Assembly: GCF_000092405.1 (NCBI RefSeq)
Contig: NC_014220.1
Location: forward strand, 434,001 to 498,000
DNA from: Syntrophothermus lipocalidus DSM 12680
Lineage (GTDB): Bacteria > Bacillota > Syntrophomonadia > Syntrophomonadales > Syntrophothermaceae
Direction of reading: 5' to 3'
Length of the DNA: 64,000 bases
The notes below the pieces were generated by a model that saw only the letters and a program-made list of their open reading frames with translations, made no database searches and was not told the DNA's origin. This document shows positions 27,121-57,796 of this stretch, in pieces; the stretch's first letter is position 1, and each line of letters opens with the position of its first letter. Made by a program: the position numbers and the translations under genes.

Positions 27121-27121
27121 C

Positions 27122-28063: not shown

Positions 28064-28182
28064 GGGGTGAGATAACGGTCACTTGCGAAAAGAGGTACGG
28101 GCTGTCAGGGGGTTTTATACGGCTGGAACGGATGTAACCGGCCGTGGAGGGAGACCAAGTATTATCACAGGAGGGATTTTCC

Positions 28183-28974: not shown

Positions 28975-28997
28975 GGCAAGGGAGGTAGTCTAGGAAC

Positions 28998-30338
28998 ATG
29001 AATTGGCAGGAAGATTACAAAAGAAAGCTTACAACTTACGAAGAGGCTGCCAAGGTTGTGAAATCGGGTGACGTAGTAGGAACTGCCTTAGGGACGGGAT
29101 CCTGTTCCGATAAGATGTTGGACGCGATCCTAGATCGCCATGAAGAACTGGAAAACGTGAAGATTACGGATTCGATTCAAGTTTATCCTTCCAAACTGTA
29201 TGACCCCAAATTCATGGCTCAGTTGGAGGGTAGGATCACGCACACTCCTATTTTTGCTATAGCTACTGTGAGGAAAATGTACCAGGCCCAACTCTCTGAT
29301 TTCTGGCCAGCTACCACGATGGACGCGGGGGATAAGTACGGAGAGAGGGTTACTGTATTTGCCCTAATGGTGAGCAAACCTAACAAACAGGGGTACGTGA
29401 ACCTAGGTCCGACTTGTTTCTACACAGCAGAAAGCATAAGGCTGGGAAGAAAAAGGGGACAGTTGCGCACCGTCATAGCCGAGGTCAACGACCAGATGCC
29501 GATCGTCTTCGGCGACAACTGGATGCACATCTCGGAGTTCGATTACATCATCGAACGGTCGGCCCCTATACCGACTTTTAAACGAGGAGAACCAAGCGAA
29601 GTTGAACAGCGCATAGGAGAATACGTGCTGGAACTGATAAACGACGGGGATACGGTCCAGATGGGACTGGGAGGTATATCCGAGGCCGTGGCCGCCGGAT
29701 TGAGGGGCAAACGAGATCTCGGCATCTTGACCGAGATGTTACCACTGGCTCTTCCGCAGCTGGTCGAAGCCGGTATAGTCAACAATTCTCGCAAGCCTTT
29801 ATTCAAGGGAATCAGTATAGCGTCATTTGTACTCGGCGACCAGGCCTTATATGATTATATCAGCGAAAACCCTAGTTGTCAGCTTTACCCGGCTTCGTAC
29901 ACCAATGATCCAAGGTTTATTTCCCAACACCCTAATATGGTGGCTATGAATACTTCTCTAATGATAGACCTCACCGGGCAGAGCACGTGCGAAGGGATAG
30001 GTCATACCATGGTTAGCGGTGTCGGAGGCCAGTTAGACTTCTTGATCGGAGCCTATTGGTCGGAAGGCGGAAAAGGCATCAACATGTTAAGCGCTGCTCG
30101 TACCATGCCTGACGGCAGACTGGTTTCCAGCATTGTTCCGGAATTACCGCCGGGTACGCCGGTGAGTGTACCCCGGACTTTCACCAATTATGTTATCACC
30201 GAATACGGGATTGCCAAGCTTAAGTATAAGAGTAGAAGGGAACGAGCACTGGAATTGATATCCATTGCTCATCCCGATTTGAGAGGAGAACTGATGGACA
30301 GTCTCAGAACCAAGTTCTACATGAGTTCTGGGAAATAA
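28998..30338 (+). CDS. Acetyl-CoA hydrolase/CoA-transferase family protein
   Basis: A 446-residue class I CoA-transferase of the acetyl-CoA hydrolase/4-hydroxybutyrate CoA-transferase family. The two halves are visible: the N-terminal CoA-binding part, and the C-terminal part with MGLGGISEAV, GILTEMLPLALPQLV (likely catalytic Glu) and GVGGQLDFLIGAYWSEGGKG, then YVITEYGIAKLKYKSRRERA. It could exchange CoA between acyl-CoA and acetate, activating a fatty acid or saving the thioester bond. It is the last gene of the FixABCX-type operon, 23 nt after the crotonase. No clear terminator follows. Confidence 0.88.
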   Translation: MNWQEDYKRKLTTYEEAAKVVKSGDVVGTALGTGSCSDKMLDAILDRHEELENVKITDSIQVYPSKLYDPKFMAQLEGRITHTPIFAIATVRKMYQAQLSDFWPATTMDAGDKYGERVTVFALMVSKPNKQGYVNLGPTCFYTAESIRLGRKRGQLRTVIAEVNDQMPIVFGDNWMHISEFDYIIERSAPIPTFKRGEPSEVEQRIGEYVLELINDGDTVQMGLGGISEAVAAGLRGKRDLGILTEMLPLALPQLVEAGIVNNSRKPLFKGISIASFVLGDQALYDYISENPSCQLYPASYTNDPRFISQHPNMVAMNTSLMIDLTGQSTCEGIGHTMVSGVGGQLDFLIGAYWSEGGKGINMLSAARTMPDGRLVSSIVPELPPGTPVSVPRTFTNYVITEYGIAKLKYKSRRERALELISIAHPDLRGELMDSLRTKFYMSSGK

Positions 30339-30344
30339 GGCTAG

Positions 30345-30844
30345 TCAAGGCAATTTAATAGGTGAGCGTTTATTGACGCTGGCGGTTCAGTTACCTGGCT
30401 TTATATGAGGATACTTCCCCCTCCTTTTCAGCCATTAGCCAACAATCGGCTATGATACCGCCAGCGCTTTATTTTGGCGATTGGCTTAAGGTATGACCCA
30501 TGAAACGCGTAACCCAATGACGCTAACCGCTTTCCGTTGTTAATATTGGCATTTTCTACCTGCCTCAGATGGTTTAACAACTTGTAAAAAAGTTCAGCCC
30601 TAGGGAAGGACAGTAGGATAAGGGCTGCCACAAATGCAATGATTCATGATAAGTCAAAACAAGAACTCTTTTACAGAACAAAGAGAGAAATACTCGGTTT
30701 CAGCAAGGACGACACTGTTCAGACTCTATTACTAGTAGTCCGCGTATACCCGCATTCATAATAGTGCGTTCCCCGCTTTTTCGCATGCAAATACCTATGA
30801 TAACGCGATGGTAAAGGATCCCAGTTTCGATCTTGTGACCTTGC
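30345..30844. other. Gene-poor spacer with inverted repeats
   Basis: Between the CoA-transferase gene and the promoter of the next cluster I see no supportable gene. GCTGGCGGT (30378-30386) is complementary to ACCGCCAGC (30455-30463), and TTAGCCAA (30433-30440) to TTGGCTTAA (30479-30487), so the first part could fold. The minus-strand reading frames here have no ribosome site or recognisable motif. Confidence 0.4.
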
Positions 30845-30860
30845 GTTTCGAAAACGAAAC
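30845..30860. promoter_or_regulatory. Candidate enhancer (UAS) for sigma-54 activator
   Basis: GTTTCG-AAAA-CGAAAC: 6-nt arms around 4 nt. It matches the spacing and most bases of inverted repeats found before three other sigma-54 promoter regions in this window. It lies about 150 nt upstream of the -24 box at 31010, a usual enhancer distance. Confidence 0.55.
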
Positions 30861-31009
30861 TATTTCGCTTATGATGGTAAAGAATTCTCCGCTCTTTGGT
30901 CATCCAATGCCTTGTCGTAACCTGATCCCGTTCCCAAAACAGGGCTTCTCGCAGCACATCCATGTCTGAATTCCGACGGTTCAAACTAGATATTCAACTC
31001 CGACTAGGT

Positions 31010-31025
31010 TGGCACATTTATTGCA
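31010..31025 (+). promoter_or_regulatory. Sigma-54 promoter (-24/-12)
   Basis: TGGCAC-ATTTA-TTGCA matches the consensus TGGCAC-N5-TTGCA exactly. Start of transcription would be about 31037, leaving a leader of about 160 nt before the thiolase-like gene at 31198. Confidence 0.85.
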
Positions 31026-31197
31026 TGACCGATATCTGAAGATGTTTTGTAGTAGTACACGCTAGACTGTCACAGGGAGGGGAGATATGCAATATCTAGC
31101 TTGAGCCGTATAAGAATAACTGTGAACGGCTAAGATACGCCTTTTGAATTGGTCATCGTAATGCCCAACTTTTGTAAGAAAAGGAGGTACAAGCAAA

Positions 31198-32430
31198 ATG
31201 CAAGACGTTTATATCATTGGGGTAGGAATACTTCGTTTCGGCAAACACAAGAATGAAACCGTACGTTCCATGGCAGAAAAAGTCATAATCAACGCACTAG
31301 AAGACGCTGGCATTGATAAAAAAGACCTGCAGGCAGGCTATTTTTCAAACTCGTTTTGGGGCTTGTTTGACGGGCAACACTCCATTCGGGGACAGGTAGT
31401 TTTCAGAGGCATGGGCATCGATAAAATCCCGGTAGTCAACGTTGAGAACGCATGTGCGGGGGCTTCTTCAGCGCTTCACCTTGCCTATACGGCGGTGAGG
31501 GCAGGTATGGTTGATGTGGCTATCGCTGTGGGTTCGGAGAAACTGACGAGTTCAGACAAAGCCAAGTCTCTCCAGTCTTATTCTGCTTGTATGGACGTGA
31601 CTAATATCGAAGGTACTCTCAATGGTCTAATGGGATATGGTCGAAACCTTACGATAGAGCTGCCGCCCGAAGACGAAAATGCACAGCGTAGCGTCTTCAT
31701 GGACATTTACGGAATGATGGCAAGGTGGCACATGAACAAGTATGGGACGACCCAAAGGCACTTGGCAGTTGTGGCATCCAAGAACCATTTCCACGCTTCG
31801 CTCAATCCATATGCACAATATCAGAACGTGATGTCAGTTGAAGAAGTAATGAACGACGTTCCCGTCATTTACCCGTTGACTCGGGCGATGTGTGCCCCGG
31901 TAGGAGATGGCGCAGCCGCTGCAATCGTGTGTTCCGAGAACTTCTTAAAGAAACATGGAAAGGGAAGAGCGGTTAGAATCCGGGCATCGGTTTTGGTTCA
32001 AGGCTCGGACCGAGATTACGACGGAGAAGATATCGGCGAGCGGGTTGGTAAGCTTGCGTATAATGCAGCCGGAGTTGGTCCTGAAGACATTGACACCGCA
32101 GAGCTGCATGACGCTACCGCCTATGGAGAACTGCACCAATGTGAGTGTATGGGGTTTTGCCCGCCTGGGGAAGGGGGGCCGTATGCAGAATCTGGCGCTA
32201 CTAAGCTAGGTGGAGACAGGCCTATCAATACTAGCGGTGGCCTGGAGGGTAGAGGACATCCAATCGGCGCTTCTGGACTTGCCCAAATTCACGAGCTTGT
32301 GACTCAGCTTCGGGGAGAAGCAGGGCCCAGACAGGTAGAAGGTGCGAGAATCGCCTTAGCACAGAATGGCGGAGGCAGCATAGGAATTGAGGAAGCGGCA
32401 ATGTGCATCCATGTTCTGGAAAGAGTATAG
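31198..32430 (+). CDS. SCP2-type thiolase family protein
   Basis: A 410-residue thiolase-fold protein. The nucleophilic cysteine is in ENACAGASSALHLAY, and HDATAYGELHQCECMGF and GLEGRGHPIGASGLAQIHEL are present as in SCP2-type thiolases. The second catalytic cysteine of biosynthetic thiolases (CxG near the end) is replaced by AQNGGGSIG, which is usual in the SCP2 group. It may cleave a branched or ring-derived 3-oxoacyl-CoA, or accept substrates from the dehydratase encoded downstream. ATG after AAAAGGAGG. First gene after the sigma-54 promoter. Confidence 0.85.
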   Translation: MQDVYIIGVGILRFGKHKNETVRSMAEKVIINALEDAGIDKKDLQAGYFSNSFWGLFDGQHSIRGQVVFRGMGIDKIPVVNVENACAGASSALHLAYTAVRAGMVDVAIAVGSEKLTSSDKAKSLQSYSACMDVTNIEGTLNGLMGYGRNLTIELPPEDENAQRSVFMDIYGMMARWHMNKYGTTQRHLAVVASKNHFHASLNPYAQYQNVMSVEEVMNDVPVIYPLTRAMCAPVGDGAAAAIVCSENFLKKHGKGRAVRIRASVLVQGSDRDYDGEDIGERVGKLAYNAAGVGPEDIDTAELHDATAYGELHQCECMGFCPPGEGGPYAESGATKLGGDRPINTSGGLEGRGHPIGASGLAQIHELVTQLRGEAGPRQVEGARIALAQNGGGSIGIEEAAMCIHVLERV

Positions 32431-32443
32431 CTGTGAACAGTGT

Positions 32444-32474
32444 CCATCTCGCCGCGTAAACTGCGGCGAGGTGG
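32444..32474 (+). other. Intercistronic hairpin
   Basis: CTCGCCGC (32448-32455) pairs with GCGGCGAG (32463-32470) around 7 nt, with extra pairing outside. No T run follows, so transcription probably continues into the next thiolase gene. Confidence 0.6.
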
Positions 32475-32520
32475 CGATGAAGTAAGCGGTTAGCGTAGCC
32501 CGAACGAAAGGAGGAATAAG

Positions 32521-33774
32521 ATGAAAGACGTGGTCATAGTGTCCGCCTGCCGGACAGCTATAGGAACCTTTGGGGGTTCGTTGAAGGACCTAAATGCTCC
32601 GACCCTGGCGAAGGTAGCCATGCGGGGAGCAATCGAGAGGGCAGGGATAGATCCGGGGCTAATTAATGATGTGCGCTTTGGTTGTGCGTTTGAACATCCT
32701 GACAGCAATAACGTAGCTCGTGTCGCAGCGCTGTTAGCAGGAGTACCTGCTGAGACATCGACTGCGGTGACGATAAACAGGGTTTGTGTGTCGGGAATGG
32801 AAGCGGTTGTATCGGGTATGGCCATGATCCAGGCAGGCCTTGTCGATGTGGTTTTGGCCGGTGGGGTGGAGCACATGTCAGGTGTCCCGTTTAGCGTTCT
32901 AAATGCCAGGTGGGGCTGTCGCCTTCAGGATTCGGTTTTTGTCGATAACCTGATTCACGGGTTATACGGCGGGTCAAAGTTTTTGCCAGGGCCGGAAAAC
33001 GGTCCGGTCAAGGAAGGTCCCATTCTGGAGGCGGGTCGAGGTAAGCCTTATATTATGGGTTACACGGCGGAGTTATTAGCCCAATACTGCAATATCAGTC
33101 GCGAAGCGATGGATGAAGTTGCCCTGCGGAGCCATAACAACGCAGAGCGCGCCACAAAGGATGGATCGTTTCGAGAGGAGATTGTTCCAGTTGAAATCCC
33201 ACAGAAAAAGGGGAAGGCTCCCTTAGTGTTTGACAAGGATGAGCATTTTAGACCAGGCGTTACTATGGAACAACTTGCTGCTTTACCGCCGGCTTTTGTC
33301 CCCAAGATCGGAAAAGTAACGGCAGGCAATGCTTCCGGGATGAATGACGGAGCCGCAGCTATGGTAATAATGTCGGCTGATAAGGCTAGAGAATTAGGGA
33401 TGAAACCAATTGCCAGAATTAAGGCGGTCGGCTACGGAGGATGCCATCCATCTATCATGGGATTGAGCCCGGTTCCGGCTATAAAGAATCTGCTGTCAAA
33501 ATCGGGGCTTAAATTAGAAGATTTTGAACTCATAGAAATTAATGAAGCATTTGCGGCTCAGTATCTCGCCGTTGAGCAGGAATTGGGCTTAAATCGCGAG
33601 ATTACCAACGTCAATGGATCTGGGATCGGTTTGGGGCACCCGGTTGGAGCTACCGGATGCCGGATTATGGTGACGCTGCTGTATGCGATGAAAAAGAGAG
33701 GCAAGACACTGGGGTTAGCAAGCCTGTGCGGCGGCGGCGGAGTATCGATGGCGGTCGCTTTGGAGATGGTTTAA
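32521..33774 (+). CDS. Acetyl-CoA acetyltransferase (thiolase II type)
   Basis: A 417-residue thiolase. All catalytic parts are present: the nucleophile Cys in NRVCVSGMEAVVSG, NEAFAAQYLAVEQEL, the His in GLGHPVGATGCR and the second Cys in CGGGGVSMAVALEM. It is about 25 residues longer than typical thiolases because of an insert around residues 140-175 (LIHGLYGGSKFLPGPENG). It should split 3-oxoacyl-CoA with CoA to release acetyl-CoA. ATG after AAAGGAGGAATAAG. Second of two adjacent thiolase genes. Confidence 0.92.
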   Translation: MKDVVIVSACRTAIGTFGGSLKDLNAPTLAKVAMRGAIERAGIDPGLINDVRFGCAFEHPDSNNVARVAALLAGVPAETSTAVTINRVCVSGMEAVVSGMAMIQAGLVDVVLAGGVEHMSGVPFSVLNARWGCRLQDSVFVDNLIHGLYGGSKFLPGPENGPVKEGPILEAGRGKPYIMGYTAELLAQYCNISREAMDEVALRSHNNAERATKDGSFREEIVPVEIPQKKGKAPLVFDKDEHFRPGVTMEQLAALPPAFVPKIGKVTAGNASGMNDGAAAMVIMSADKARELGMKPIARIKAVGYGGCHPSIMGLSPVPAIKNLLSKSGLKLEDFELIEINEAFAAQYLAVEQELGLNREITNVNGSGIGLGHPVGATGCRIMVTLLYAMKKRGKTLGLASLCGGGGVSMAVALEMV

Positions 33775-33837
33775 AGAAGTAGAAACAGGCGGCGGCGTTG
33801 AAAGAGTTAGAATTAAGCATAGGGAGGTGAATGCCTA

Positions 33838-34608
33838 ATGCTGAGTGATTTAAAGGGAAAAGTCGCAGTGGTAACCGGTGGTGCGGATGGAATTGGAAAG
33901 GCGTCGGCACTGAAGCTGGCCCAAAGCGGAGCTGACATAGTTATTGCGGACAAAAACCTGGATGGGGCTACCAGGGTGGCAACAGACATTAGAGGTATGG
34001 GCAGGAGAGCCACGGCAATAGAATGTGATCTATGGGAATATGATTCGGTTAAGAATATGGCAGATAAGGCGATTGCCGAGATGGGGAAAGTAGATATCTT
34101 GGTTGCCAGCGGGGCTACTACTGTAAAATACGCGAAGTTCTTCAGAGACCTCGATCCTCATGACTATGCAGGTTGTCTTAATTCACAGCAGTTTGCGCGC
34201 TTATATGCTATCCGGGCTTTGTTAGATCACATGATAGAGCAGAACTACGGCAAGATCGTGATCGTTACCAGCGACGCGGGGAGAACTCCAACGCCGAGAG
34301 AATCGATGATAGGTTCGGCTGCGGCAGGTTTGATACTGGTGACAAAGGCGTTAGCAAAAGAATTTAGCAGCTGGAATATACGCGTAAATGGAGTGTGCTT
34401 GACGGTGATTCAAGGGACTCCGGCCTTTGATGCGGTGATGGGAACCGATGCCAAACATGTTTTTCAAAAGGCTGTAGAGCGAGCTCCTTTCGGTATCCCA
34501 ACTGCGGAAGATGTAGCTGAGGCCGTATTGTTCATGGCTTCGCCTGAGACAGATGTAATTACAGGTCAGGTTATCAGCGTAAACGGGGGACTGTCCTTCG
34601 GAGGGTAA
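33838..34608 (+). CDS. SDR-fold protein lacking the catalytic Tyr and Lys
   Basis: A 256-residue short-chain dehydrogenase/reductase fold. The cofactor motif VVTGGADGIGKASALKLAQ is intact. The YxxxK active-site pair, however, is replaced: in the segment aligned to YxxxK, residues 158-162 read IGSAA, directly before AGLILVTKALAKE. The NNAG structural motif is also changed (DILVASGA). By family knowledge such a protein should not perform normal SDR redox chemistry. It may be a structural partner, a sensor or an enzyme with another reaction. It sits between the thiolase and dehydratase genes. ATG after GGGAGGTG. Confidence 0.85.
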   Translation: MLSDLKGKVAVVTGGADGIGKASALKLAQSGADIVIADKNLDGATRVATDIRGMGRRATAIECDLWEYDSVKNMADKAIAEMGKVDILVASGATTVKYAKFFRDLDPHDYAGCLNSQQFARLYAIRALLDHMIEQNYGKIVIVTSDAGRTPTPRESMIGSAAAGLILVTKALAKEFSSWNIRVNGVCLTVIQGTPAFDAVMGTDAKHVFQKAVERAPFGIPTAEDVAEAVLFMASPETDVITGQVISVNGGLSFGG

Positions 34609-34710
34609 AAGGCATAGAGGTTTACAGGGCCAAAACTTAAGAGTTGCCTCATACACACCATAGGTGGAAGTGATATTGATGCAGCCGTATCTAAGGAGGT
34701 GCTTGAATGT

Positions 34711-35898
34711 ATGAGTTTTAGCGAAATTCTCTCCAATTTGTCAAAGATAGCGGAACAGGCCTATGAAAAGGCGAAGCAGTGGAAGGCGGAGCATGGCGGT
34801 AAAGTAGTGGGTTTGTGCGGGATGCACTATCCCGAAGAGTTGGTTCACGCGTCAGGGGCTCTCCCAATCATACTTCAAGAGATTGACGAGCCGGTAACGA
34901 CGGGGCATGCTTATTATTATCCCTTCTTCTGTGGCTTTAGCCGCAGTATTATCGACCAGGCGGCAAAAGGGTATTTAGATTTCTTGGATGGCTTCATATC
35001 GGGTGACTACTGCATTCAGGTTGTCGGGGCAGGGGAGGCCTTGGGCGTTGTTCTTCGCAAAGCCAGCAATATGTTCTTCCGGTTTCCTGTAGGTAACCAG
35101 CCTTGGACACAGGCTGATATAAAGGAAGGTTTGCAAGAACTGAAACGCGACCTAGAAAAGTTCGTAGGTCACGAAATCACGGATGAGTCTATTCGGGAAA
35201 GTATTCGTGTCTATAACAGGAACCGTTCCCTTATGAGGGAGATATACAGAATTAGGGCGTCCAATCCTGAGGCCCTGAGTGCGAAGGACTTGGTGACAAT
35301 AGTAAAGACCAGCATGATTATGCCGAAGGAGGAGCATAACGCAATTTTGCAGGAGCTTTTGAAAGACTTGCCCAGCAGGGAAACCCGTGCGGACCAGGAA
35401 GGATTACGTGTATTCGTATCGGGCAGCCTGTGTGGGGCTCCCAAAGTCGATATACTAACCATGCTGGAACAGACTGGTGCTGTAGTTGTGGATGACGATC
35501 TCTTCCACGGATACAGGTATATCAACACCGACATCGATATTGATGGAAATACGGATCCGCTAAAAGCTATTGCATCTTTCTATATCGCAAAGAACGCCAA
35601 GGTACCATGCCCGACCCGGGTTGATCCTACGACCAGTTGGCAGCAGTATTTGGTAAACGCGGCGAAAGAGCACGGAGCTGGTGCGATTATCATCTTGATG
35701 GCAAAATACTGTGAACCGCATATGTTCTTCTATCCTGATATCAAAGAAACATTGGAAGAAGCGGGGATTCCTCATCTCTTAATTGAGGTGGAACATGAAG
35801 TTGTGTCACTGGAAAGTCTGAGGACGAGGATAGAGGCCTTTGTGGAGATAGTCGAAATTGAGGCTCTTAAGAAGGGCAAGGCTGAGGCTTCTAGGTAG
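34711..35898 (+). CDS. 2-hydroxyacyl-CoA dehydratase subunit (HgdB/HadC-like)
   Basis: A 395-residue subunit of the 2-hydroxyacyl-CoA dehydratase/benzoyl-CoA reductase family (HGD-D). Candidate iron-sulfur ligands are in GLCGMHYPEELVHASGALP, FFCGFSRSII and AKYCEPHMFFYPD. SGSLCGAPKVDIL lies in the second Rossmann-like half. ATG 34711 has AAGGAGGTG at 9 nt; GTG 34699 is an alternative. It would form a heterodimer with the next gene's product, holding [4Fe-4S] clusters and receiving electrons from the activator. Whether it dehydrates a hydroxyacyl-CoA or reduces an aryl-CoA cannot be told from sequence. Confidence 0.88.
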   Translation: MSFSEILSNLSKIAEQAYEKAKQWKAEHGGKVVGLCGMHYPEELVHASGALPIILQEIDEPVTTGHAYYYPFFCGFSRSIIDQAAKGYLDFLDGFISGDYCIQVVGAGEALGVVLRKASNMFFRFPVGNQPWTQADIKEGLQELKRDLEKFVGHEITDESIRESIRVYNRNRSLMREIYRIRASNPEALSAKDLVTIVKTSMIMPKEEHNAILQELLKDLPSRETRADQEGLRVFVSGSLCGAPKVDILTMLEQTGAVVVDDDLFHGYRYINTDIDIDGNTDPLKAIASFYIAKNAKVPCPTRVDPTTSWQQYLVNAAKEHGAGAIIILMAKYCEPHMFFYPDIKETLEEAGIPHLLIEVEHEVVSLESLRTRIEAFVEIVEIEALKKGKAEASR

Positions 35899-35913
35899 GA
35901 GGGAGTGAGACGA

Positions 35914-37221
35914 ATGAGTACGGCAGAACCGAAGAAGGCTAATCGCGTAAAATCGGGCAAGCTGGTTAACAAGCTCGTAAACGAATACTGGGAAGACCTG
36001 ATACATGCCAAAGAAGCGGGCAAACTAGTGGTCTACACTACAGGACTACCTATCGGCCCGTTCATGGCAGCACAAGACATGGCCTGGATACATGGCGAGG
36101 GTTACGGGGCCCGCGTTGCCGCCAGGCATGAGGAGAAGGAACCGCAGATTTATGCTGAGAGACGGGGATATAACCGGGAGATCTGTTCATATGCCCGAAC
36201 CCAGCTAGGCTGTGTGATGTTCGCCGAAAGAGGTATTCCTGAGGATCTACCTGCGGGTCCCATCGCAGCTCAGATACCTCCGCCGGACGCTATCGTTACT
36301 TGTTATCCCGGCTGTTCCAGCGGACCACAGTGGGACTGGTCTATTGAACGGCTATGGGGGAAGAAAATACCATGGTTCAACGTTGTTATACCGTATCACA
36401 TGGGGCGCAACGGCTCCGGCTACATGAGCGGTCAGGAGTTCCAGGACGAGGTTGCATATATAGTGAGGCAGTTCAAGGATCTCATCCGGTGGTTGGAAGA
36501 GCTCAGCGGTCGTCCATACAACTGGGACAAGTTCTGTGAACTGATGGCGGTCACTAAGAAAGTTGGAAAGCTCCGCATGGAAGCCATGGAGCTAGCAGGT
36601 AAGACCGTCCCTTCACCCGCGAGTTTCTTCGATTGGAGTCAATTCATCGCTCCAGTGAATTACCTTACAGCGTGGCCGGGGACAATAGAGTGTATGCAAG
36701 CAGTTAAAGAAGAAGTTCAGGAAAGGATAGCCAATGGAGTAACGGCGGTTCCGAATGAAAAGTACCGGCTCTTCTGGGAAGGAATAATGAACTGGAACAA
36801 GCTAGGGTGGATGGCGAACAAGTTTGCGAATTACGATGCGTGCGTGGTGGCTGGCCGGTATACTCATATGGCTTTCTGGCAGGAGCCCGACGTGATTGAT
36901 CCAGAGGATCCCCTCGAAGGGATAGCTATTAACCACCTGGAATGCCAGCTTAACCTAGGATATCCTATCACTATCGAGAGGATGAAGAAGCTCTGCCGGG
37001 AATATGCCATCGATGGGGTGATTCTCCACGGGGCTAGAACTTGCCGTTCCTTCGCCCGGTCACATTATTTGATGGCCGAGGAATTGATGAGGACTATGGG
37101 GATACCCAGCACCATGTTCGAGGGCGATATGGTTGATGAGTCGTTCTACATCGACGAACTCGTCAACACGCGTATTGAGGCGTTACTCGAAACACTCGAA
37201 GCCAAGAAGAGCAGGAACTAA
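35914..37221 (+). CDS. 2-hydroxyacyl-CoA dehydratase subunit (HgdA/HadB-like)
   Basis: A 435-residue partner subunit of the same family, 15 nt downstream of the first. Cysteines likely to bind a cluster are in CSYARTQLGCVMF, TCYPGCSSGPQWDW and HGARTCRSFARSHYLMAEEL. The N-terminal segment AGKLVVYTTGLPIGPFMAAQ matches the usual YTxxxxP beginning. Start ATG 35914 after GGAGGGAGTGAG. Two subunits plus one activator argues for a 2-hydroxyacyl-CoA dehydratase rather than the four-gene class I benzoyl-CoA reductase. Confidence 0.88.
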   Translation: MSTAEPKKANRVKSGKLVNKLVNEYWEDLIHAKEAGKLVVYTTGLPIGPFMAAQDMAWIHGEGYGARVAARHEEKEPQIYAERRGYNREICSYARTQLGCVMFAERGIPEDLPAGPIAAQIPPPDAIVTCYPGCSSGPQWDWSIERLWGKKIPWFNVVIPYHMGRNGSGYMSGQEFQDEVAYIVRQFKDLIRWLEELSGRPYNWDKFCELMAVTKKVGKLRMEAMELAGKTVPSPASFFDWSQFIAPVNYLTAWPGTIECMQAVKEEVQERIANGVTAVPNEKYRLFWEGIMNWNKLGWMANKFANYDACVVAGRYTHMAFWQEPDVIDPEDPLEGIAINHLECQLNLGYPITIERMKKLCREYAIDGVILHGARTCRSFARSHYLMAEELMRTMGIPSTMFEGDMVDESFYIDELVNTRIEALLETLEAKKSRN

Positions 37222-37252
37222 TAAACACACAATTAGCTAACCCCCCCTTAAA

Positions 37253-37299
37253 TCCATGAATTTGTCCGGGGTTCCTTCTCGCCCCGGATGAATTCTGGA
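37253..37299 (+). other. Hairpin between dehydratase and activator genes
   Basis: CCGGGG pairs with CCCCGG, extended by GAATT/AATTC and TCC/GGA outside with small bulges. It is not followed by a T run. It may tune the ratio between the dehydratase, needed in bulk, and its activator, needed in catalytic amounts. Confidence 0.55.
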
Positions 37300-37379
37300 T
37301 TAACAAATAGATTTACGGGTGGCGGAAGAAGATTAGACCTTCGAGCAGACAAATTTGTTTTAACGAAGGAAGGAACAGC

Positions 37380-38237
37380 ATGGAAAGTAGCCAGGATGCG
37401 ATTAATATGGATAAGGGGCATGATGTACGCGAAGGCGCTTATGTCCTAGGAGTGGATAGCGGTTCTTTGACGGCCAAGGCTGTAATAATGAACCGGGATA
37501 GGGAGATTGTTGCGCATAGCGTGGTGCAGCTAGAAATCGTCAGCCTAGAGGCAGTGAAGGAAGCAGTGAACAACGTATTGAGTTCGGCCGGTTTGGATAT
37601 GAGCGATATCGCCTATGTGGTAGCTACAGGCTACGGGCGGCGCAGATATGATTTTGCCGATAAGACCGTAACCGAGATAGGCTGTCACGCCAAAGGGGCA
37701 CACTACCTGCTTCCGGAGGTTAGAACTGTTATCGACATCGGGGGACAGGACAGCAAAGTGATAGCCGTTGACGAAGAAGGGAACCCAACTCACTTTGCGA
37801 TGAATGACAGGTGCGCCGCTGGTACCGGAAGGTTTCTGGAGGTAATGGCGAGTGCTCTTCGTGTGCCGCTGGAAGCGATTGGGGAGATGTCCTTGAAGGC
37901 GCGGCAGAAGCTGACGATAAGCAGTATCTGCACGGTTTTTGCGGAAACGGAAGTAATATCGTTGGTGGCAGAAGGGCACAGCAAAGAAGATATACTTGGA
38001 GCCCTTCACGCATCTATCGCTAGCCGGATTGCCGGGTTGGTTGCCCGGGTTGGGCTGCGGGAACCGGTGATGATGACGGGAGGAGTCGCCAAGAACGTCG
38101 GTGCCGTTCGAGCTATAGAAGGGGAGTTAGGGGTGTCGATAACTGTCGCCAGGGATCCCCAGATAGTTGGAGCGCTCGGAGCGGCGCTTTTTGCATTGGA
38201 TTTTGTGGAAGGGATGTCCGGGTTAAAACTCAGGTAG
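37380..38237 (+). CDS. 2-hydroxyacyl-CoA dehydratase activator (BadF/BcrA-type ATPase)
   Basis: A 285-residue ASKHA-fold ATPase that drives electrons into the dehydratase with ATP hydrolysis. GVDSGSLTAKAVIMN is the phosphate-binding loop, VIDIGGQDSKVIAVDEEG the second, and MTGGVAKNVGAVRAIEGELG the adenosine motif. The cysteines in NDRCAAGTGRFLEVM and SSICTVFAETEV would bind the bridging [4Fe-4S] cluster of the homodimer. ATG after AAGGAAGGAA. It lies after both dehydratase subunits, as expected for a single activator. Confidence 0.93.
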   Translation: MESSQDAINMDKGHDVREGAYVLGVDSGSLTAKAVIMNRDREIVAHSVVQLEIVSLEAVKEAVNNVLSSAGLDMSDIAYVVATGYGRRRYDFADKTVTEIGCHAKGAHYLLPEVRTVIDIGGQDSKVIAVDEEGNPTHFAMNDRCAAGTGRFLEVMASALRVPLEAIGEMSLKARQKLTISSICTVFAETEVISLVAEGHSKEDILGALHASIASRIAGLVARVGLREPVMMTGGVAKNVGAVRAIEGELGVSITVARDPQIVGALGAALFALDFVEGMSGLKLR

Positions 38238-38386
38238 ACGTTAATAAAAGCCACGAGTGATGTTTAGATGCCTGGTGAAGTCTTTATTAAGTGAGGTAAG
38301 CTTACACTGTAACGAGGACTAGAACGTATGATTAGAAAGAGCAGCGTTCGATGAAATATATGGATTGTCGGAAAGGGGTCGATAGA

Positions 38387-39577
38387 ATGGCCGGGCCTTT
38401 GAGCGGCTTAAAAATCCTTGATTTTACGACATTGCTACCCGGGCCTTACGCTACGATGAACTTGGCAGACATGGGGGCAGAGGTGCTGAGAATAGTCTCA
38501 GGTTCGAGGCCTGATCTGGTTGATTTAATGCCCCCATTTGTTCCGGGGACTAAATTATCAGCTGCATCATGTCAGTTAGGAAGAAACAAGAAGGTTATGA
38601 CCTTGAATTTGAAGGACGAACGGGCAGTGCAAGTGATCCACAAGCTTATAACTGACGCTGGTTACGATATCGTAATCGAACAATTTCGCCCGGGAGTGAT
38701 GGAGAAGTTCGGGCTTGACTATAAAAACCTCAGGGCAGTAAACGAACGGTTGATATACTGTTCATTGACCGGTTACGGGCAGACGGGTTCCATGAGGGAT
38801 AAGGCTGGCCACGACCTTAACTATGTGGCCCTTTCAGGCATAGCGTCTTACTCCGGGAAGAAGGATTCGGGGCCACCGGTTTTGGGTATTCAGATAGCGG
38901 ACGTTGCTTCTGGAGCAAACAATGCTATAATCGGAATTCTGGCGGCCGTGATACACAGGCAAAACACCGGGCGTGGCCAGTACATTGATGTATCGATGAC
39001 CGACGCGTTAATCGCCTTCCACGCTATGCAGGGTGCTGCTTTCCTGGTGGACGGCAAAGACATCGGGAGAGAGGAAACGTTTACGAACGGCGGTGGCCTT
39101 TATGACTATTACGAGACCAAAGATGGCCGGTATTTGGCCTTCGGAGGCGCTGAGCCGCAGTTTATTAGAGCCTTCTTGGAGGCTATAGGGAGACCGGATT
39201 TAGTTGAAGAGGGGCTCAACATGCAGACTGGTGCCCAGGTAAAGGGAGAAGTGAGAGAGGTAATAAAGACTAAGACACTTGACGAGTGGAAGGCCGTATT
39301 CGATTCGGTTGATGCCTGCTGCGTGCCGGTGCTTACTTTATCGGAAGTGTTTGCAAGCGACCTAGTTAAAGGTCGAAACATGGTGGTCGAAGTACCCGGC
39401 CCCAATGGTATCACAATTAAGCAGATCGCTTGTCCTATTAAGTTTTCAGAGTCATGTCCCGAATACCACCATTGTGGGGTGCCGAAAGATCAAGCCAATA
39501 CCGCGGAAATAATGCAGAATCTAGGGTACTCTTTGCAGGAAATTGAGGAATTTACCAAGACGGGTTTGTTTAGCTAA
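38387..39577 (+). CDS. CaiB/BaiF family CoA-transferase or racemase
   Basis: A 396-residue class III CoA-transferase fold. AGPLSGLKILDFTTLLPGPY starts the protein, and KAGHDLNYVALSGI and IADVASGANNAIIGILAAVI follow. The HD of GHDLNY and the Asp of IADVASG align with the His/Asp pair of alpha-methylacyl-CoA racemases, so a 2-methylacyl-CoA racemase is as likely as a CoA-transferase. I chose ATG 38387 by family alignment and the GGAAAGGGG before it; 38351 would add 12 residues. It follows the activator gene. Confidence 0.82.
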   Translation: MAGPLSGLKILDFTTLLPGPYATMNLADMGAEVLRIVSGSRPDLVDLMPPFVPGTKLSAASCQLGRNKKVMTLNLKDERAVQVIHKLITDAGYDIVIEQFRPGVMEKFGLDYKNLRAVNERLIYCSLTGYGQTGSMRDKAGHDLNYVALSGIASYSGKKDSGPPVLGIQIADVASGANNAIIGILAAVIHRQNTGRGQYIDVSMTDALIAFHAMQGAAFLVDGKDIGREETFTNGGGLYDYYETKDGRYLAFGGAEPQFIRAFLEAIGRPDLVEEGLNMQTGAQVKGEVREVIKTKTLDEWKAVFDSVDACCVPVLTLSEVFASDLVKGRNMVVEVPGPNGITIKQIACPIKFSESCPEYHHCGVPKDQANTAEIMQNLGYSLQEIEEFTKTGLFS

Positions 39578-39693
39578 GCGACTCTCATTGACCAGATAGG
39601 CTACAGTTCTTGCGCGCGTGGGTTGGGAACGTGGAAGGCGGTAAACAGAGGAGCAACACGTTCAACTCTGAACTGATTGGAGGGGTCTGCGGA

Positions 39694-40146
39694 GTGCAGT
39701 ATGAGGAAACTGAAAATCGCGGGCTCGAGGAGAGGTTATTTAGTCTTGTAATGGACCGATGTAATCGGGTAAGGGGATTGAATACCTTCGGTTTAAAAAT
39801 GACCTATCTAGGTAATGGAACGGCTGGATTGAAAATGGTGGTGGGAACAGAGTTTTCCAATGCCCATGGGAGAACTCACGGGGGATTAGTAGCAGCCGCT
39901 CTTGACACGGCGATTGGAGTGGCTGTATGGACGCTTGGTTATGATGTGGTTACCTTAGAGATGAATCTGAACTATATTGCTCCCGTGGAGGTAGGCGATG
40001 TCGTTACCTGCGACGGATGGGTGATTCATAAAGGAAAGACCGTCGTAGTTGGCGAGGGAGAAATGCGCGACGGAAACGGCAAACTAATGGCTAAGAGTCG
40101 TATGACGTTTTATAGAGTGGGTGAATTGGCAGGTGAAGATTATTAG
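39694..40146 (+). CDS. PaaI-like hotdog thioesterase
   Basis: A 150-residue hotdog-fold protein. NAHGRTHGGLVAAALDTAIG gives the family signature with its HGG catalytic segment. VTLEMNLNYIAPVEVGDVVT is the usual strand that follows. It would release CoA from a stalled or unusual acyl-CoA of this cluster. I chose GTG 39694 with GGAGGGG at 8 nt; a TTG at 39610 would extend the N-terminus by 28 residues without family support. Confidence 0.8.
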   Translation: MQYEETENRGLEERLFSLVMDRCNRVRGLNTFGLKMTYLGNGTAGLKMVVGTEFSNAHGRTHGGLVAAALDTAIGVAVWTLGYDVVTLEMNLNYIAPVEVGDVVTCDGWVIHKGKTVVVGEGEMRDGNGKLMAKSRMTFYRVGELAGEDY

Positions 40147-41348: not shown

Positions 41349-42827
41349 ATGACGGGTATCGCCATCGTCGGAGGAGGAAAAGGTGGAACTTCAATTCTTA
41401 AGGCCTTTGATTGCATTGAGGGGTTTAGCATAGTCGGAATCTGTGATATAGATACGAACGCCCCAGCTATGCAACTGGCCCGAGACCGGGGAGTTCCTAC
41501 TTATTCGGAAGTGGAAACGCTTCTAAGACAGCCCGGTCTTGATGTTGTAATCGAAGCAACAGGCAGCGAAAAAGTGCAGCGATTAATATATGAGAAAAAG
41601 AGGGAGACGTGCTCGGTAATCGATGCCAAAGGGGCTGATTTCTTGATGACCTTGACGGCAGCCCACGAGAAAATGGTGAGGAAAGTTAACAGCAAGAAGG
41701 AGACCTTCGAGGGTTTAGCCTCCTTTTTGACACGAACCTACGAGGGCGGAGTGGTCTACTTTACGACAGACCTGGAACGATACGATTTCGTTGAGTCTAC
41801 AGATATCAATATTTCCAAAGTGAAGGTAGGAGAAAAGTTCCTGCGAGACGGATACATAGACCGGTGTATTAATACTAAAAAGCAGGTAAAGGGGGTTATA
41901 GACGCCAAGGTTTACGGGATACCGCTTAAGATATGGGTAAACCCGATTTTCGAGGACGACGGACAAGGCCAGGTACTCGGTACCTACGGGGTTATGGTTC
42001 CCAAAGTGCACCCGGTAGCCCGAGCCTTCGATGTATTTGCGCCCATCGTTATTCAGTCTAACGTTGAGGGAGCTCAGGTTATGGTAACCGACTTGGAAAA
42101 GGTTACGCACAGCATGTCTAGTAAAAAGTTCAGCATCGAGGAGATGTCGGTCGGAAACCCGATTAGAGAAGGAGATGCCGGATGGAGAGTCGTGACCACT
42201 GGGTCCACAATTGTGGACGATATTGAAAGCAAACGATATGGGGCTTTCCGCATGATTGGGATTCCTTTATTTGATGAGGAAACTGGTGATGTGGTAGGTG
42301 CTTTTGGCATTGCCACCCCGCGAATCCTGGCTAAAAACCTGAAGGAGATGGCTACGATATTGAAAACAAATGTTGAAGAGATTGCCCTGGCGATGGAAGA
42401 GATAGCAGCCTCGGCCAGCGAGATAAACGTTAATGAAAGCAACCTCGCAGACGTAATTAAGGAAGTTCAGGGGATTTCCAGCGAAATAAACGAGATACTC
42501 AACTTTATTCGTAGCGTGGCTGACCAGACCAAAATGCTGGGTTTGAACGCGGCCATCGAAGCCGCTCGGGCCGGAGAACACGGACGCGGGTTTGGAGTGG
42601 TGGCCGAGGAGATCCGAAACCTGTCTGATCAGTCAAAGGAAACGGCTGAACTAATTCGAAAGCTAACGCGGGAAATAGGAGAAAAGGTAAGCAAGGCAGG
42701 AGAGGCTTCGGTAAACAGCGTAAAACAGAGCCAGGAACAGGCAGCAGCTACACAACAGGTTACCGCCTCCGTTATGGAAATGGCCAATATGGCCGAGAGA
42801 CTAGCAGAAATGGCAAAATCACTATAG
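41349..42827 (+). CDS. Soluble chemoreceptor with N-terminal Rossmann domain
   Basis: A 492-residue fusion. Residues 1-110 form a Rossmann domain ([18 protein letters not shown] then [17 protein letters not shown]) as in NAD-dependent dehydrogenases. Two PAS-like repeats follow, about 139-222 and 246-326, recognisable by TTDLERYDF and VTDLEKVTH at their starts and by GTYGVMVPK and GAFGIATPR at their ends. Residues 335-492 are a methyl-accepting chemotaxis signalling domain with its hairpin tip ([18 protein letters not shown]). No membrane helix or signal peptide is seen, so it is cytoplasmic. It probably senses a nucleotide or redox state. ATG after GTGAGGTGATTTAGG. Confidence 0.85.
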
Positions 42828-51032: not shown

Positions 51033-52211
51033 CTAGAGAACTTCGATAATGGTTGCCATGGCAGGGCCTCCACCCGCGCAGAGGGCTGCACACCCGTATC
51101 TCAGGTTCCGGCGTTTCATCTCGTTTATAAGGGTAATTACTAAACGAAGTCCGGTACACCCTACGGGATGCCCCAGGGAGATCCCAGACCCGTTTACGTT
51201 AATCTTTTCCGTATCGAGCTTCAATTCACGGTTGCACGCAAGGAACTGGGCAGCAAACGCCTCATTGATCTCCCAAAGCTGAACATCATCTAAGCTCATT
51301 CCTGCAAATTTGAGGGCCCGTTTGACCGCCGGGACCACGCCGATGCCCATAATGCGCGGTTCAACAGCCGCCGAAGCCGTGGCCACTATGCGGGCGAGCG
51401 GTTTGATTCCTAATTCCACTGCCTTGTCGTGAGCCATAACCACGGCTGCACACGCCGCATCATTAATTGACGACGCGTTTCCGGCAGTGACGGTTCCGTC
51501 CTTCTTAAAAGCAGGCTTGAGTTTAGCCAAGCTTTCTAGCGTGGTGTCCGGATTAGGATGTTCGTCGGTGTCAAACAGGAAAGTCTCTTTCTTAGTCTTT
51601 ACTTCGACGGGCACTATTTCGTCTTTAAACTTGCCCTCCTTGATAGCCTGGCAGGCACGCTGGTGGCTTATGAAGGCCCACTCGTCCTGTTCTTCTCGGC
51701 TGATATTGTACATTTCTGCCAGGTTCTCAGCGGTAATTCCTTGATGACCGTTTCCGAACGCGTCTATCAACGCATCGTAGAGCATGCCGTCAACAAGCTC
51801 TCCATTTCCCATGCGGTAACCAGTGCGAGCTTTGAGCAAGAGATAAGGGACATTACTCATGCTTTCTATGCCTACGGCAGCACCCGCGTCGATCTTGCCT
51901 AGCATGATTTCCTGGCTAATAATTTCGAGGGCCCGCATGGCCGAAGGGCATTGCTGATTGACAGTAACCGAAACCGTTTCCACCGGGCAGCCAGCGCCGA
52001 TGGTGATTTGCCTTGCTGGATTTCCCTTACAACCGGCCTGGTATACATGCCCGGCGGCGACTTCTTCTACGGTATCCGGGCTAATGCCAGCACTATTAAT
52101 GGCAGCTTTGAGCGCAATTGTTCCTAGATCAACTGCAGAAAAATCTTTAAGCGCTCCTAAAAAATTGCCGATTGCGGTCCTCTTCCCACTTACTATTACG
52201 ACATCGCGCAT
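51033..52211 (-). CDS. Acetyl-CoA acetyltransferase (thiolase)
   Basis: A 392-residue thiolase of standard length, read leftward. Nucleophile Cys in NQQCPSAMRALEIIS, NEAFAAQFLACNREL, His in SLGHPVGCTGLRLVI and second Cys in ALCAGGGPAMATIIEV. It begins MRDVVIVSGKRTAIGNFLGA. It would complete the beta-oxidation cycle with the divergent gene set at 52989-59482, and it has its own sigma-54 promoter at 52316-52331. The ATG follows an AAAGGAGTAG site. Confidence 0.93.
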   Translation of the reverse strand: MRDVVIVSGKRTAIGNFLGALKDFSAVDLGTIALKAAINSAGISPDTVEEVAAGHVYQAGCKGNPARQITIGAGCPVETVSVTVNQQCPSAMRALEIISQEIMLGKIDAGAAVGIESMSNVPYLLLKARTGYRMGNGELVDGMLYDALIDAFGNGHQGITAENLAEMYNISREEQDEWAFISHQRACQAIKEGKFKDEIVPVEVKTKKETFLFDTDEHPNPDTTLESLAKLKPAFKKDGTVTAGNASSINDAACAAVVMAHDKAVELGIKPLARIVATASAAVEPRIMGIGVVPAVKRALKFAGMSLDDVQLWEINEAFAAQFLACNRELKLDTEKINVNGSGISLGHPVGCTGLRLVITLINEMKRRNLRYGCAALCAGGGPAMATIIEVL

Positions 52212-52315
52212 TTCGAAACTACTCCTTTCGTCTCTAAAAATGATCGGTTTAATCTGATACGCTTAACTTCCGATTCCACCCCCAGTTCTACTTAGCTTGT
52301 TCTCAAGGTATGCAA

Positions 52316-52331
52316 TGCAAATAACATGCCA
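52316..52331 (-). promoter_or_regulatory. Sigma-54 promoter for the minus-strand thiolase gene
   Basis: On the minus strand TGGCAT-GTTAT-TTGCA has the invariant GG and GC at the right spacing, with one mismatch in the -24 box. It lies about 105 nt before the thiolase start. Confidence 0.7.
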
Positions 52332-52402
52332 AGAGCCGCAACGCGCCCATCAAACATTTGTGGGCTATGCGTGCTGACGGATTTATAAAGAAGTGGTGAA
52401 CT

Positions 52403-52460
52403 GTTTCACGATTGAAACTGCTCCCAAAACAGTGAAACCATGCAATTTCACGAATGAACC
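52403..52460. promoter_or_regulatory. Two candidate enhancers between divergent sigma-54 promoters
   Basis: GTTTCA-CGAT-TGAAAC (52403-52418) is a perfect inverted repeat. ATTTCA-CGAA-TGAACC (52445-52460) is a weaker second copy 26 nt on. They lie about 70-130 nt from the minus-strand -24 box and about 160-220 nt from the plus-strand one, so a bound activator could serve both. Confidence 0.65.
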
Positions 52461-52620
52461 TAAAATAACAAACAAGCAAACTCAGCGCGGAGATGACTTA
52501 CCGTGCTAGGGGCGCGGCATGCTGCAGAATTCTATGACCATTCGCACGGCTTCGCCTACCTCCTGCTTACAAGAGCTGTGTTGATTCCTGGCTATCCAGA
52601 CCTTTTGCTTGTTACACCTT

Positions 52621-52636
52621 TGGCACAGAAATTGCA
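52621..52636 (+). promoter_or_regulatory. Sigma-54 promoter for the second beta-oxidation cluster
   Basis: TGGCAC-AGAAA-TTGCA, an exact consensus match. A leader of about 340 nt precedes the acyl-CoA dehydrogenase at 52989. The remaining 52212-52988 spacer contains no gene I can support. Confidence 0.85.
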
Positions 52637-52988
52637 CGACACTGTGACAACGGGGTCTGAAAGGTCTATTAAATTGAACTCCGGACCTGAACGGATATTT
52701 CCCCACGGCGCCATGTTTTTGCACATCTGTTGAGAACGAATAAATCGATCGCCTAGGGAAAGCGAAGGTGTCGGGGCTCAAGCAAAACCCGGTAAGGGTC
52801 AGTAACTAATCGCCGGTAGACTTGTAGGACAGGGCAGATAAGAGAGGAGGGATGCTATATTGGCCTTTGTTCAAGTGGGGGGTCGTTGCAGAGCAGATTT
52901 GATAACTGCACCTCCATGAGAACACTTAGCCAACCTAATGAGGAAAGGGATTGAGACCAACAAGTGGAAAGGCAGGTTGTTTGGAGAC

Positions 52989-54809
52989 ATGTCGTATAAT
53001 TACGCGTACAAGACAAGAGAGCACAAATTCATATTGAAAGAATGGCTCCCGCTTAGCCAGATATTCGCTTATGACAGGTTTAAAGACTACTACACTGTGG
53101 ATGACGTAGACCCGATATTGGACCAGATATACAAGATTGCGAAAGAAGTAGTCGCTCCAGCTGCTAACGATGGGGTCAACAATCCTGTCTATTTAAAAGA
53201 CGGAGAGGTGTTTGTCCCTGAGTCTTTCAAGGGGCTATTCAAGTACGTTCAGGAAAACGGGTGGGGTACAAGCAACCTCGATCAACACGGAGAGGGTGCA
53301 CTCCCGCTAACGCTTCTGAACGTTGTAAACGAGCTACTGATAGCCGCTAACCCTTCGTTGATGAGCTACGTTGTTTTAACAACCGGAGCAGCGGGACTTA
53401 TCGAATCCTTCGGCGATGAACGCTTGAAGAACATGTTTCTCCCTAAAATGTTCGACGGGTCATGGTCAGGCACCATGTGTTTAACTGAGCCTAGTGCCGG
53501 TTCTGATGTGGGCGATATACTTTCAAAGGCTTATCCCACAGATAATCCGCGTATTTACAAGATTAGGGGCAACAAAATATTCATCACCGGTGGTGACGGA
53601 AATCACGTAGAAAACGTTGTCCATCTTTTTTTGGCCCGCATCGATGGGGCTGCGTCCGGCACTAAGGGTTTGTCCCTATTCGTAGTTCCTAAATACTGGG
53701 TCAACGAGGATGGCAGTCTGGAGCCGAATGACGTCAAGGCTGTCGGAGTTGAGCACAAAATGGGTCTAGAGGGGTCTTCTACAGTAGCACTTGCGTTTGG
53801 CGAGAATGACGGCTGCCGTGGCTGGCTGTTAGGGTCGTATAACGCGGAGACGGGTGAGGGACAGGGTATAGCTCAAATGTTTCAAATGATGAACGAAGAG
53901 CGGCTTACTACCGGAATTTTTGCCCTAGCCTTGGCGGCAAACGCGTATTGGAACGCGGCGGAATACTGCAAAGAACGTATTCAAGGACGCAACCAGCAAG
54001 GAGAAAGAACTGCCATCATCAATCACGAAGACGTAAGGCGGATGCTACTTTTGAACAAGGCTACGTCTGAAGCATGCCGCGCTATTATTATGAAAACCTC
54101 CTACTACATGGATGTAGCTAAACATGATATGGACAACGGTCGCAGAAAGGCTGCAGCGGCAATGGTTGACTGCCTTATTCCTTTGGCCAAGGCGTACCCG
54201 TCAGACGAAGCTTGGACTCTTATTGCCGAGTCTATTCAAGCACACGGGGGATACGGATATTGCGAAGAGTACCCAGTGGCGCAGGCAGCTCGCGATTGTA
54301 AAGTCCTTTCTATTTGGGAAGGAACTAACTTTATTCAGGGAATGGATCTCGTAGGGCGGAAGTGGAACCTCGGAAAAGGTTCTGTTTTCAATGCATTTCT
54401 AAAGAGTATAGAAGATTTCATCGAGGCCAACAAAACCGAGGAGACATTGAAAAAGGAGCTAGCTAATCTGGCAAGGGCATTGGATTCCTACAAAGACCTC
54501 ATGAACGTGATGAGAGGCTATCTCAGCACAGGAAAGCCTGGTATGATGCCCACGTTTGCCCGGCGGATTCTAACTGCGACAGCCCAGCTCTATGGCGGGA
54601 TGTGTCTCTTGGAGCAGGCCTTAATAGCGCAGCGAAGGATAGGAGAAATAGGGACCGATCACTACGATTACCAGTTCTACAACGCCAAGATTCTGTCAGC
54701 GAGGTACTATTTAAGGAATGTGGTTCCGAATGTATGGAGCCTGACGGAGATATTACGCGATGGCGATACTTCTGTTCTGGACTCGAGTCCTGAGAGTTTT
54801 GACTATTAA
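52989..54809 (+). CDS. Acyl-CoA dehydrogenase, long DmdC-like form (paralogue)
   Basis: A 606-residue flavoenzyme, clearly a paralogue of the protein at 21568 (both have KFILKEWL near the N-terminus, QMFxMMNEERLxxG in the middle and a matching C-terminal extension). Signature segments are MCLTEPSAGSDVGDILSKA, HGGYGYCEEYPVAQAARDC and the catalytic-Glu segment IWEGTNFIQGMDLVG. I place the start at ATG 52989 by alignment with the paralogue; ATG 52938 would add 17 residues. It leads the sigma-54-controlled set with a hydroxyacyl-CoA dehydrogenase behind it. Confidence 0.9.
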   Translation: MSYNYAYKTREHKFILKEWLPLSQIFAYDRFKDYYTVDDVDPILDQIYKIAKEVVAPAANDGVNNPVYLKDGEVFVPESFKGLFKYVQENGWGTSNLDQHGEGALPLTLLNVVNELLIAANPSLMSYVVLTTGAAGLIESFGDERLKNMFLPKMFDGSWSGTMCLTEPSAGSDVGDILSKAYPTDNPRIYKIRGNKIFITGGDGNHVENVVHLFLARIDGAASGTKGLSLFVVPKYWVNEDGSLEPNDVKAVGVEHKMGLEGSSTVALAFGENDGCRGWLLGSYNAETGEGQGIAQMFQMMNEERLTTGIFALALAANAYWNAAEYCKERIQGRNQQGERTAIINHEDVRRMLLLNKATSEACRAIIMKTSYYMDVAKHDMDNGRRKAAAAMVDCLIPLAKAYPSDEAWTLIAESIQAHGGYGYCEEYPVAQAARDCKVLSIWEGTNFIQGMDLVGRKWNLGKGSVFNAFLKSIEDFIEANKTEETLKKELANLARALDSYKDLMNVMRGYLSTGKPGMMPTFARRILTATAQLYGGMCLLEQALIAQRRIGEIGTDHYDYQFYNAKILSARYYLRNVVPNVWSLTEILRDGDTSVLDSSPESFDY

Positions 54810-54869
54810 CATCAGATAGTACTAAGTTGGTAAAGGAAATAATTAGCTAAAATAAAGGAGGAAGAAGTA

Positions 54870-55718: not shown

Positions 55719-55746
55719 ATCCTATTGAGACATTATCGATAGAGAC

Positions 55747-55791
55747 AGCTGGGGAGGGAGACATCTCTCCTCAGCTTTTAAGAATTTTTTT
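55747..55791 (+). terminator. Rho-independent terminator
   Basis: AGCTGGGGAGGGAGA and TCTCTCCTCAGCT form an imperfect stem, followed by TTTTAAGAATTTTTTT. It would end part of the transcripts after the hydroxyacyl-CoA dehydrogenase. Confidence 0.75.
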
Positions 55792-55896
55792 GGGCAGGCA
55801 GCTGAAAAATCATCCATGAGGGTCAAGTAGCCAGGTGGCTAGGCAGTATTGCTGCGCTGTGGCGGCGCGAACCGTCTAAAGGATCAGGAGGTCAAA

Positions 55897-56874: not shown

Positions 56875-57014
56875 TGAGCGAATCGACATACAAAGCAGTG
56901 ATTTCCGTAAATTCGGCCAAAGGATATAAGGGATACAGTCTTGTTCGAAACCGAAATACTCAGTTATTCGTAGGAATCCGGGTTAGAGTATGATTTTGAA
57001 AGGGTGGTATGACG

Positions 57015-57764: not shown

Positions 57765-57796
57765 CCTGTACAGGATTTGTCAGGGGGAATGAAGAA

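Follow-up and report, generated by a model that had tools for sequence, protein, structure and literature searches.

A soluble protein of Syntrophothermus lipocalidus DSM 12680, in which a Rossmann domain precedes two PAS-like repeats and the signaling hairpin of a methyl-accepting chemotaxis protein (MCP), is most likely a YfmS-like chemoreceptor fed by an NAD(H)-sensing input module, a reading in which we infer that the ligand binds, which way the signal runs and that motility is controlled. We give a probability of about 0.6 to its being a cytoplasmic receptor that reads the metabolic state of the cell, from an NAD(H)-binding Rossmann sensor through the PAS repeats and the MCP hairpin to CheW/CheA. 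Since the same Rossmann domain, with its binding motif intact, is found on several other kinds of signaling proteins, it is probably a reusable sensor of internal redox or metabolic state, and the protein is a known kind of receptor in a new variant form, with a broader unrecognized module behind it.

Architecture of the receptor

The window is the whole stretch of 64,000 nucleotides analyzed here (positions 434001-498000 of the single-contig genome, which has 2,405,559 bases), and the open reading frame of 492 amino acids, which starts with ATG, occupies exactly positions 41349-42827 of its forward strand. The features, in window coordinates, are as follows.

41349..42827, +, complete receptor gene, 492 aa, Rossmann-PAS-PAS-MCP, soluble (ORF, Pfam, AlphaFold2)
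41349..41702, +, Rossmann domain, residues 1-118 (Pfam GFO_IDH_MocA, profile matches, AlphaFold2 beta-alpha-beta order)
41364..41390, +, dinucleotide-type glycine motif, residues 6-14, with G8, G10 and G13 (conservation in 138 distinct proteins)
41445..41447, +, Asp33 at the tip of beta2, predicted ribose-binding carboxylate (conservation; model strand 26-32; motif meaning from PMC4777477)
41553..41564, +, EATG loop after beta4, residues 69-72, putative lining of the cofactor site (conservation)
41625..41732, +, predicted long helix from the Rossmann domain to repeat 1, residues 93-128 (AlphaFold2, low confidence at about 100-125)
41703..42005, +, PAS/Cache-like repeat 1, residues 119-219, containing C173 (alignment, HHalign, model, fold search)
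42009..42323, +, PAS/Cache-like repeat 2, residues 221-325 (alignment, HHalign, model, fold search)
42324..42824, +, MCP signaling hairpin, residues 326-492 (PF00015; matches to 2ch7 and 1qu7)
42516..42617, +, hairpin tip, residues 390-423, expected CheA/CheW contact (invariant residues in the alignment)

The first-pass annotation had claimed an N-terminal Rossmann domain on an MCP, the absence of membrane helices and a tandem duplication of the middle segments. The first is borne out by Pfam, by PDB profile matches and by the AlphaFold2 fold, the second by hydropathy (the Kyte-Doolittle 19-residue mean peaks at 1.42) and by the AlphaFold2 model, in which no membrane helix appears either, and the third by the alignment of the two repeats with BLASTP (27% identity, 2e-7 in a small search space) and HHalign (97%). 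The fusion had also been called unusual, which holds for known architectures, among which it is uncommon, but not for genomes, in which it is not rare.

Residues 119-325 belong to no Pfam family and a PDB sequence-profile search with the repeats returned no match (E 0.63); fold search alone was informative, and the segment modeled by itself (pLDDT 91) matched Bacillus subtilis YfmS first and then dCache/PAS sensors. Within repeat 1, C173 is invariant in a 15-sequence alignment of homologues. The MCPsignal family PF00015 covers residues 328-489 (3.2e-26, 92.6 bits against a cut-off of 34.6), the hairpin helix spans residues 326-491 in the AlphaFold2 model, and the tip has the usual form for binding CheW/CheA. 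No HAMP domain was found in the receptor by the Pfam scan. The geometry between domains is uncertain in the whole-chain model, with a pTM of 0.45 and low confidence at residues 100-125. Neither promoter-like nor terminator-like sequences were in clear excess around the gene, where one of the former (2.3 expected from shuffles) and four of the latter (2.8 expected) were counted.

The Rossmann domain and its binding motif

The hallmarks of an NAD(P)-type Rossmann domain are present, namely a GxGxxG loop, an acidic residue ending beta2 and an alternating beta-alpha order. Two observations had been named beforehand as speaking against such a domain, a different fold for residues 1-110 and loss of the glycine motif in all homologues, and neither was made: AlphaFold2 predicts a Rossmann fold, with a beta-alpha-beta-alpha-beta block at residues 2-91 (pLDDT mostly 82-92) whose secondary structure (E2-7, H11-21, E26-32, H39-46, E64-69, H74-83, E89-91) has the small-Rossmann pattern, and G8, G10 and G13 are kept in 98-100% of 138 distinct homologous domains. 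In Pfam, GFO_IDH_MocA exceeds its cut-off at residues 4-74 (29.3 bits, cut-off 24) and NAD_binding_3 falls just under its own (23.0 against 24). A PDB search with a profile built from 19 homologues matched acetaldehyde dehydrogenases (1nvm, 2e-5) as well as Rex (5zz5, 0.002).

Position 33 is Asp in 95% of the 138 proteins and Asp or Glu in 97%, and a carboxylate at this place is known to bind the ribose in Rossmann proteins that use NAD, FAD or SAM (PMC4777477). The EATG loop is likewise conserved (E 89%, A 73%, T71 97%, G72 94%). The GxGxxG loop and the acidic tip of beta2, conserved subfamily-wide, point to NAD(H) as the most likely ligand, and CoA or acyl-CoA, judged from the motifs, appears less likely; among the ligands first suggested (NAD(H), an acyl-CoA or another nucleotide), it is thus NAD(H) that fares best. 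The C-terminal catalytic domain found in Gfo/Idh/MocA or acetaldehyde dehydrogenase enzymes is absent, residues 119-492 being PAS-like repeats and MCP hairpin, and because no catalytic domain lies behind it, the Rossmann domain would act as a sensor and not as an enzyme.

A subfamily with several signaling outputs

The subfamily was searched with a profile built on the Rossmann domain by itself, which succeeded where a single-protein contig scan with chosen peptides, probably too specific, had given no match. The profile matched in 110 of 398 genomes and 85 of 267 genera sampled across the phylum, and 138 distinct proteins were left after removal of duplicates. Carriers of the domain include Moorella mulderi, Thermosediminibacter, Clostridium homopropionicum, Desulfosporosinus, several Bacilli, Desulfogranum and Desulfuromonadales. 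MCP outputs account for 87 of the 138 (19 Rossmann-PAS-PAS-MCP and 68 Rossmann-MCP) and sigma-54 outputs for 45 (32 Rossmann-PAS-sigma54 proteins of 441-615 aa and 13 Rossmann-PAS-PAS-sigma54 proteins of 655-707 aa), the rest being four Rossmann-PAS-HTH proteins of 301 aa without an AAA+ domain, one GAF/PAS/HD protein of S. lipocalidus itself and one fragment. That the matches were ordinary oxidoreductases was rejected, the sole enzyme retrieved being a marginal match of 26 bits (L084); save for that one match, the members examined are signaling proteins and not enzymes. In most members examined the Pfam scores of the Rossmann domain are near or under the cut-off, which may be why the domain has gone unremarked so far, and no description of a Rossmann or NAD-binding input module on chemoreceptors was found in the literature searched, the coverage of which was partial.

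Several variants were also observed. The 301-aa proteins (L177-L180), with Rossmann, PAS and Fis-type HTH domains, resemble a sigma-54 activator minus its ATPase. Very short receptors, mostly of 216-254 aa, in Desulfuromonadales and Desulfogranum (L069, L075-L078, L080-L082) consist of the Rossmann domain and a stub of the MCP hairpin; those inspected have a changed tip, AGAHGRSF or AGDFGRSF, and perhaps cannot bind CheA normally. The GAF/PAS/HD-type protein (G000:C1:749739, L087) carries the third Rossmann copy of the S. lipocalidus genome, and its reading frame runs past the locus examined.

Neighborhoods of the sigma-54 relatives

BkdR, which adjoins ptb-bcd-buk, is a sigma-54 activator that in Bacilli acts on the branched-chain keto acid operon. 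In the 655-707 aa class, a leucine-dehydrogenase-type bcd lies nearby in 13 of 13 cases, with ptb and buk in most, and in the class of about 570 aa (441-615 aa) at least two methylmalonyl-CoA or C4-dicarboxylate genes are near 20 of the 32 members, the neighbors assigned by Pfam being fumarase, succinyl-CoA ligase, methylmalonyl-CoA mutase, MeaB and fumarate reductase/succinate dehydrogenase; neighbor clusters outside the Pfam scan (e.g., bcd, buk and PCC) were named by reading sequences. The sigma-54 relatives presumably regulate the adjoining catabolic genes. The proteins L067, L068, L071, L074, L083 and L131-L136 are BkdR-like activators adjoining ptb-bcd-buk with an N-terminal Rossmann domain, an assignment made by synteny and size and not by sequence comparison with the B. 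subtilis protein. In Clostridia, the Rossmann-PAS-sigma54 proteins of about 565-575 aa (L101-L130) that adjoin methylmalonyl-CoA/C4 genes are candidate regulators of propionate metabolism whose input domain is unreported.

Distribution and origin of the full-length receptor

Searching other genomes for the domain order, as the first-pass annotation had suggested, recovered full-length homologues across the order. S. lipocalidus has a second full copy at 1088183 (75% identical), and among 61 genomes of the order the full architecture occurs in at least 12 besides that of S. lipocalidus, in several copies in some. The order also has MCPs of about 390 aa that contain two repeats but lack a Rossmann domain, receptors of about 285 aa with the Rossmann domain fused directly to the MCP hairpin, and receptors of about 273 aa with one repeat.

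In the tree of the Rossmann domain, output labels change nine times against at least 63 in shuffles, and the fusions were therefore few. Proteins with the full architecture group in a single clade (support 0.956) that lies within the short Rossmann-MCPs, and their MCP hairpin scores at most 104 bits against these and 180 bits against L018, a two-repeat relative without a Rossmann domain in the same genome. A further copy, L073, scored 187 bits in the hairpin comparison, and was excluded as evidence on grafting because it is a broken full-length copy. As the hairpin is closer to that of L018 than to those of the short Rossmann-MCPs, the full form probably arose by grafting of a Rossmann domain onto a YfmS-like receptor that already had two PAS repeats. 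L018 itself (G000:C1:1333326-1334420, minus strand) is split by an in-frame TAA and is likely a pseudogene, and L073 (G007:C27), from a Syntrophomonas MAG, lies in overlapping frames, by frameshift or assembly error.

It had further been suggested that the receptor could respond to the metabolism encoded around it. Clustering of neighborhoods found few recurring neighbors of the full-length receptor genes between genomes, so that their context is not conserved; the idea gains indirect support in that sigma-54 activators with the same Rossmann domain adjoin acyl-CoA/NADH-linked operons. A tie of the receptor to the beta-oxidation island of the window was unsupported on the same neighborhood data. 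The island itself is dense in fatty-acid catabolism genes (21532-40146 and 51033-63896), comprising acyl-CoA dehydrogenases, ETF, thiolases, crotonases, CoA transferases and 2-hydroxyacyl-CoA dehydratase-like genes with their activator, and a sigma-54 regulator lies within it at 61077-62837 on the minus strand, all these identities having been read from the sequence.

Discussion

In the mechanism that we favor, the Rossmann domain would bind NAD(H), and its occupancy or the NADH/NAD+ ratio would alter the packing of the domain on helix 93-128, which would relay the change to the two PAS-like repeats and on to the MCP hairpin, whose tip would engage CheW/CheA and so change CheA activity and flagellar rotation. 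The PAS-like repeats, probably derived from a YfmS-like receptor, may relay the signal or bind a second ligand. Bacteria have attached the same Rossmann module to MCPs, sigma-54 activators, Rossmann-PAS-HTH proteins and a GAF/PAS/HD protein. With seven CheW-domain matches, two CheR genes and flagellin, the genome holds CheW/CheA-type genes and a swimming response is possible, as are coupling of the receptor to CheA/CheW and its methylation by CheR, judging from the gene content.

A different adenosine-type ligand, such as an acyl-CoA, SAM or FAD, would make the receptor a reporter of a pathway intermediate instead of the pyridine nucleotide pool. The sigma-54 relatives do adjoin acyl-CoA pathways (ptb-bcd-buk and methylmalonyl-CoA), the Pfam family CoA_binding gives a weak match (12.7 bits, under the cut-off), and a beta2 Asp with a glycine loop is common to FAD and SAM binders (PMC4777477); we nevertheless consider such a ligand unlikely, because the GxGxxG spacing with a beta2 Asp is the NAD/FAD pattern and the top Pfam and PDB profile matches come from NAD-binding dehydrogenases and from Rex, which senses NADH. 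Even less probable is a degenerate, ligand-free Rossmann domain that serves as a dimerization or protein-docking unit and leaves sensing to the PAS-like repeats. Rossmann folds can be structural, this one lacks a catalytic partner, and the order has many two-repeat MCPs that do without it, but conservation is highest at the residues of the cofactor site, which are retained whether the output is an MCP or a sigma-54 activator, and this argues that the ligand site, and not the output, is under selection; moreover, in the short receptors of 285 aa the Rossmann domain is the sole input.

The output, too, could be other than swimming, with the receptor feeding a chemosensory array that controls pili or c-di-GMP, for example. 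The several CheW-domain genes and the presence of the same Rossmann subfamily on a GAF/PAS/HD protein of this genome would suit that arrangement, which is nonetheless improbable given flagellin, CheR and a tip of the ordinary type.

The usual explanations of energy taxis invoke either transport or the redox state of the membrane, the latter through FAD-PAS receptors of which Aer is an example; a soluble receptor that carries an NAD-type domain of its own would sense the central electron carrier directly. For syntrophs, H2 and NADH set the thermodynamic limit at which they live, an ecology that an NAD-type sensor would fit. We propose, tentatively and with less than even odds, that the domain defines an unnamed family of NAD(H)-sensing modules in Bacillota and Desulfuromonadales that links the NADH/NAD+ state directly to chemotaxis, to the regulation by sigma-54 activators, BkdR among them, of propionate and branched-chain acid catabolism, and possibly to c-di-GMP signaling; in syntrophic fatty-acid oxidizers it would let cells swim depending on whether a partner keeps NADH re-oxidation feasible. 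For the BkdR-like and propionate-pathway activators, the module is a concrete and testable candidate for the signal input.

Among known systems, the acylating acetaldehyde dehydrogenases and the NAD-binding domains of Gfo/Idh/MocA proteins share fold and glycine motif with the receptor, but they are enzymes with a catalytic second domain, which the receptor lacks. Rex, an NADH-sensing repressor, has an N-terminal winged helix and acts on DNA directly; it resembles the receptor in its small NAD-binding Rossmann sensor, by a weak profile match, and full-length similarity between the two was not seen. The BkdR-like proteins of 655-707 aa have an N-terminal Rossmann domain of the receptor's subfamily with the motif intact, and differ in output, which is PAS-PAS-AAA-HTH in place of the MCP hairpin. 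For BkdR, published descriptions report only a pair of PAS/PAC domains (PMC4428206), and neither a Rossmann nor an NAD-binding input is listed in a survey of sigma-54 activators from Clostridiales (PMC6615313). For the part of the receptor outside the Rossmann domain, the closest known relative is YfmS of B. subtilis, a soluble protein of 286 aa listed as an orphan chemoreceptor (PMC5137498) and the best structural match of the full model (9a72, modeled with CheW; TM 0.79 on YfmS, 32% identity over 270 columns). In YfmS one PAS-like repeat runs straight into the MCP hairpin, without a membrane helix, and the receptor shares this PAS/Cache-like domain leading directly into the hairpin with no HAMP; whereas YfmS-type receptors have just one sensor domain and nothing further at the N-terminus, this one has two repeats and an extra N-terminal Rossmann domain.
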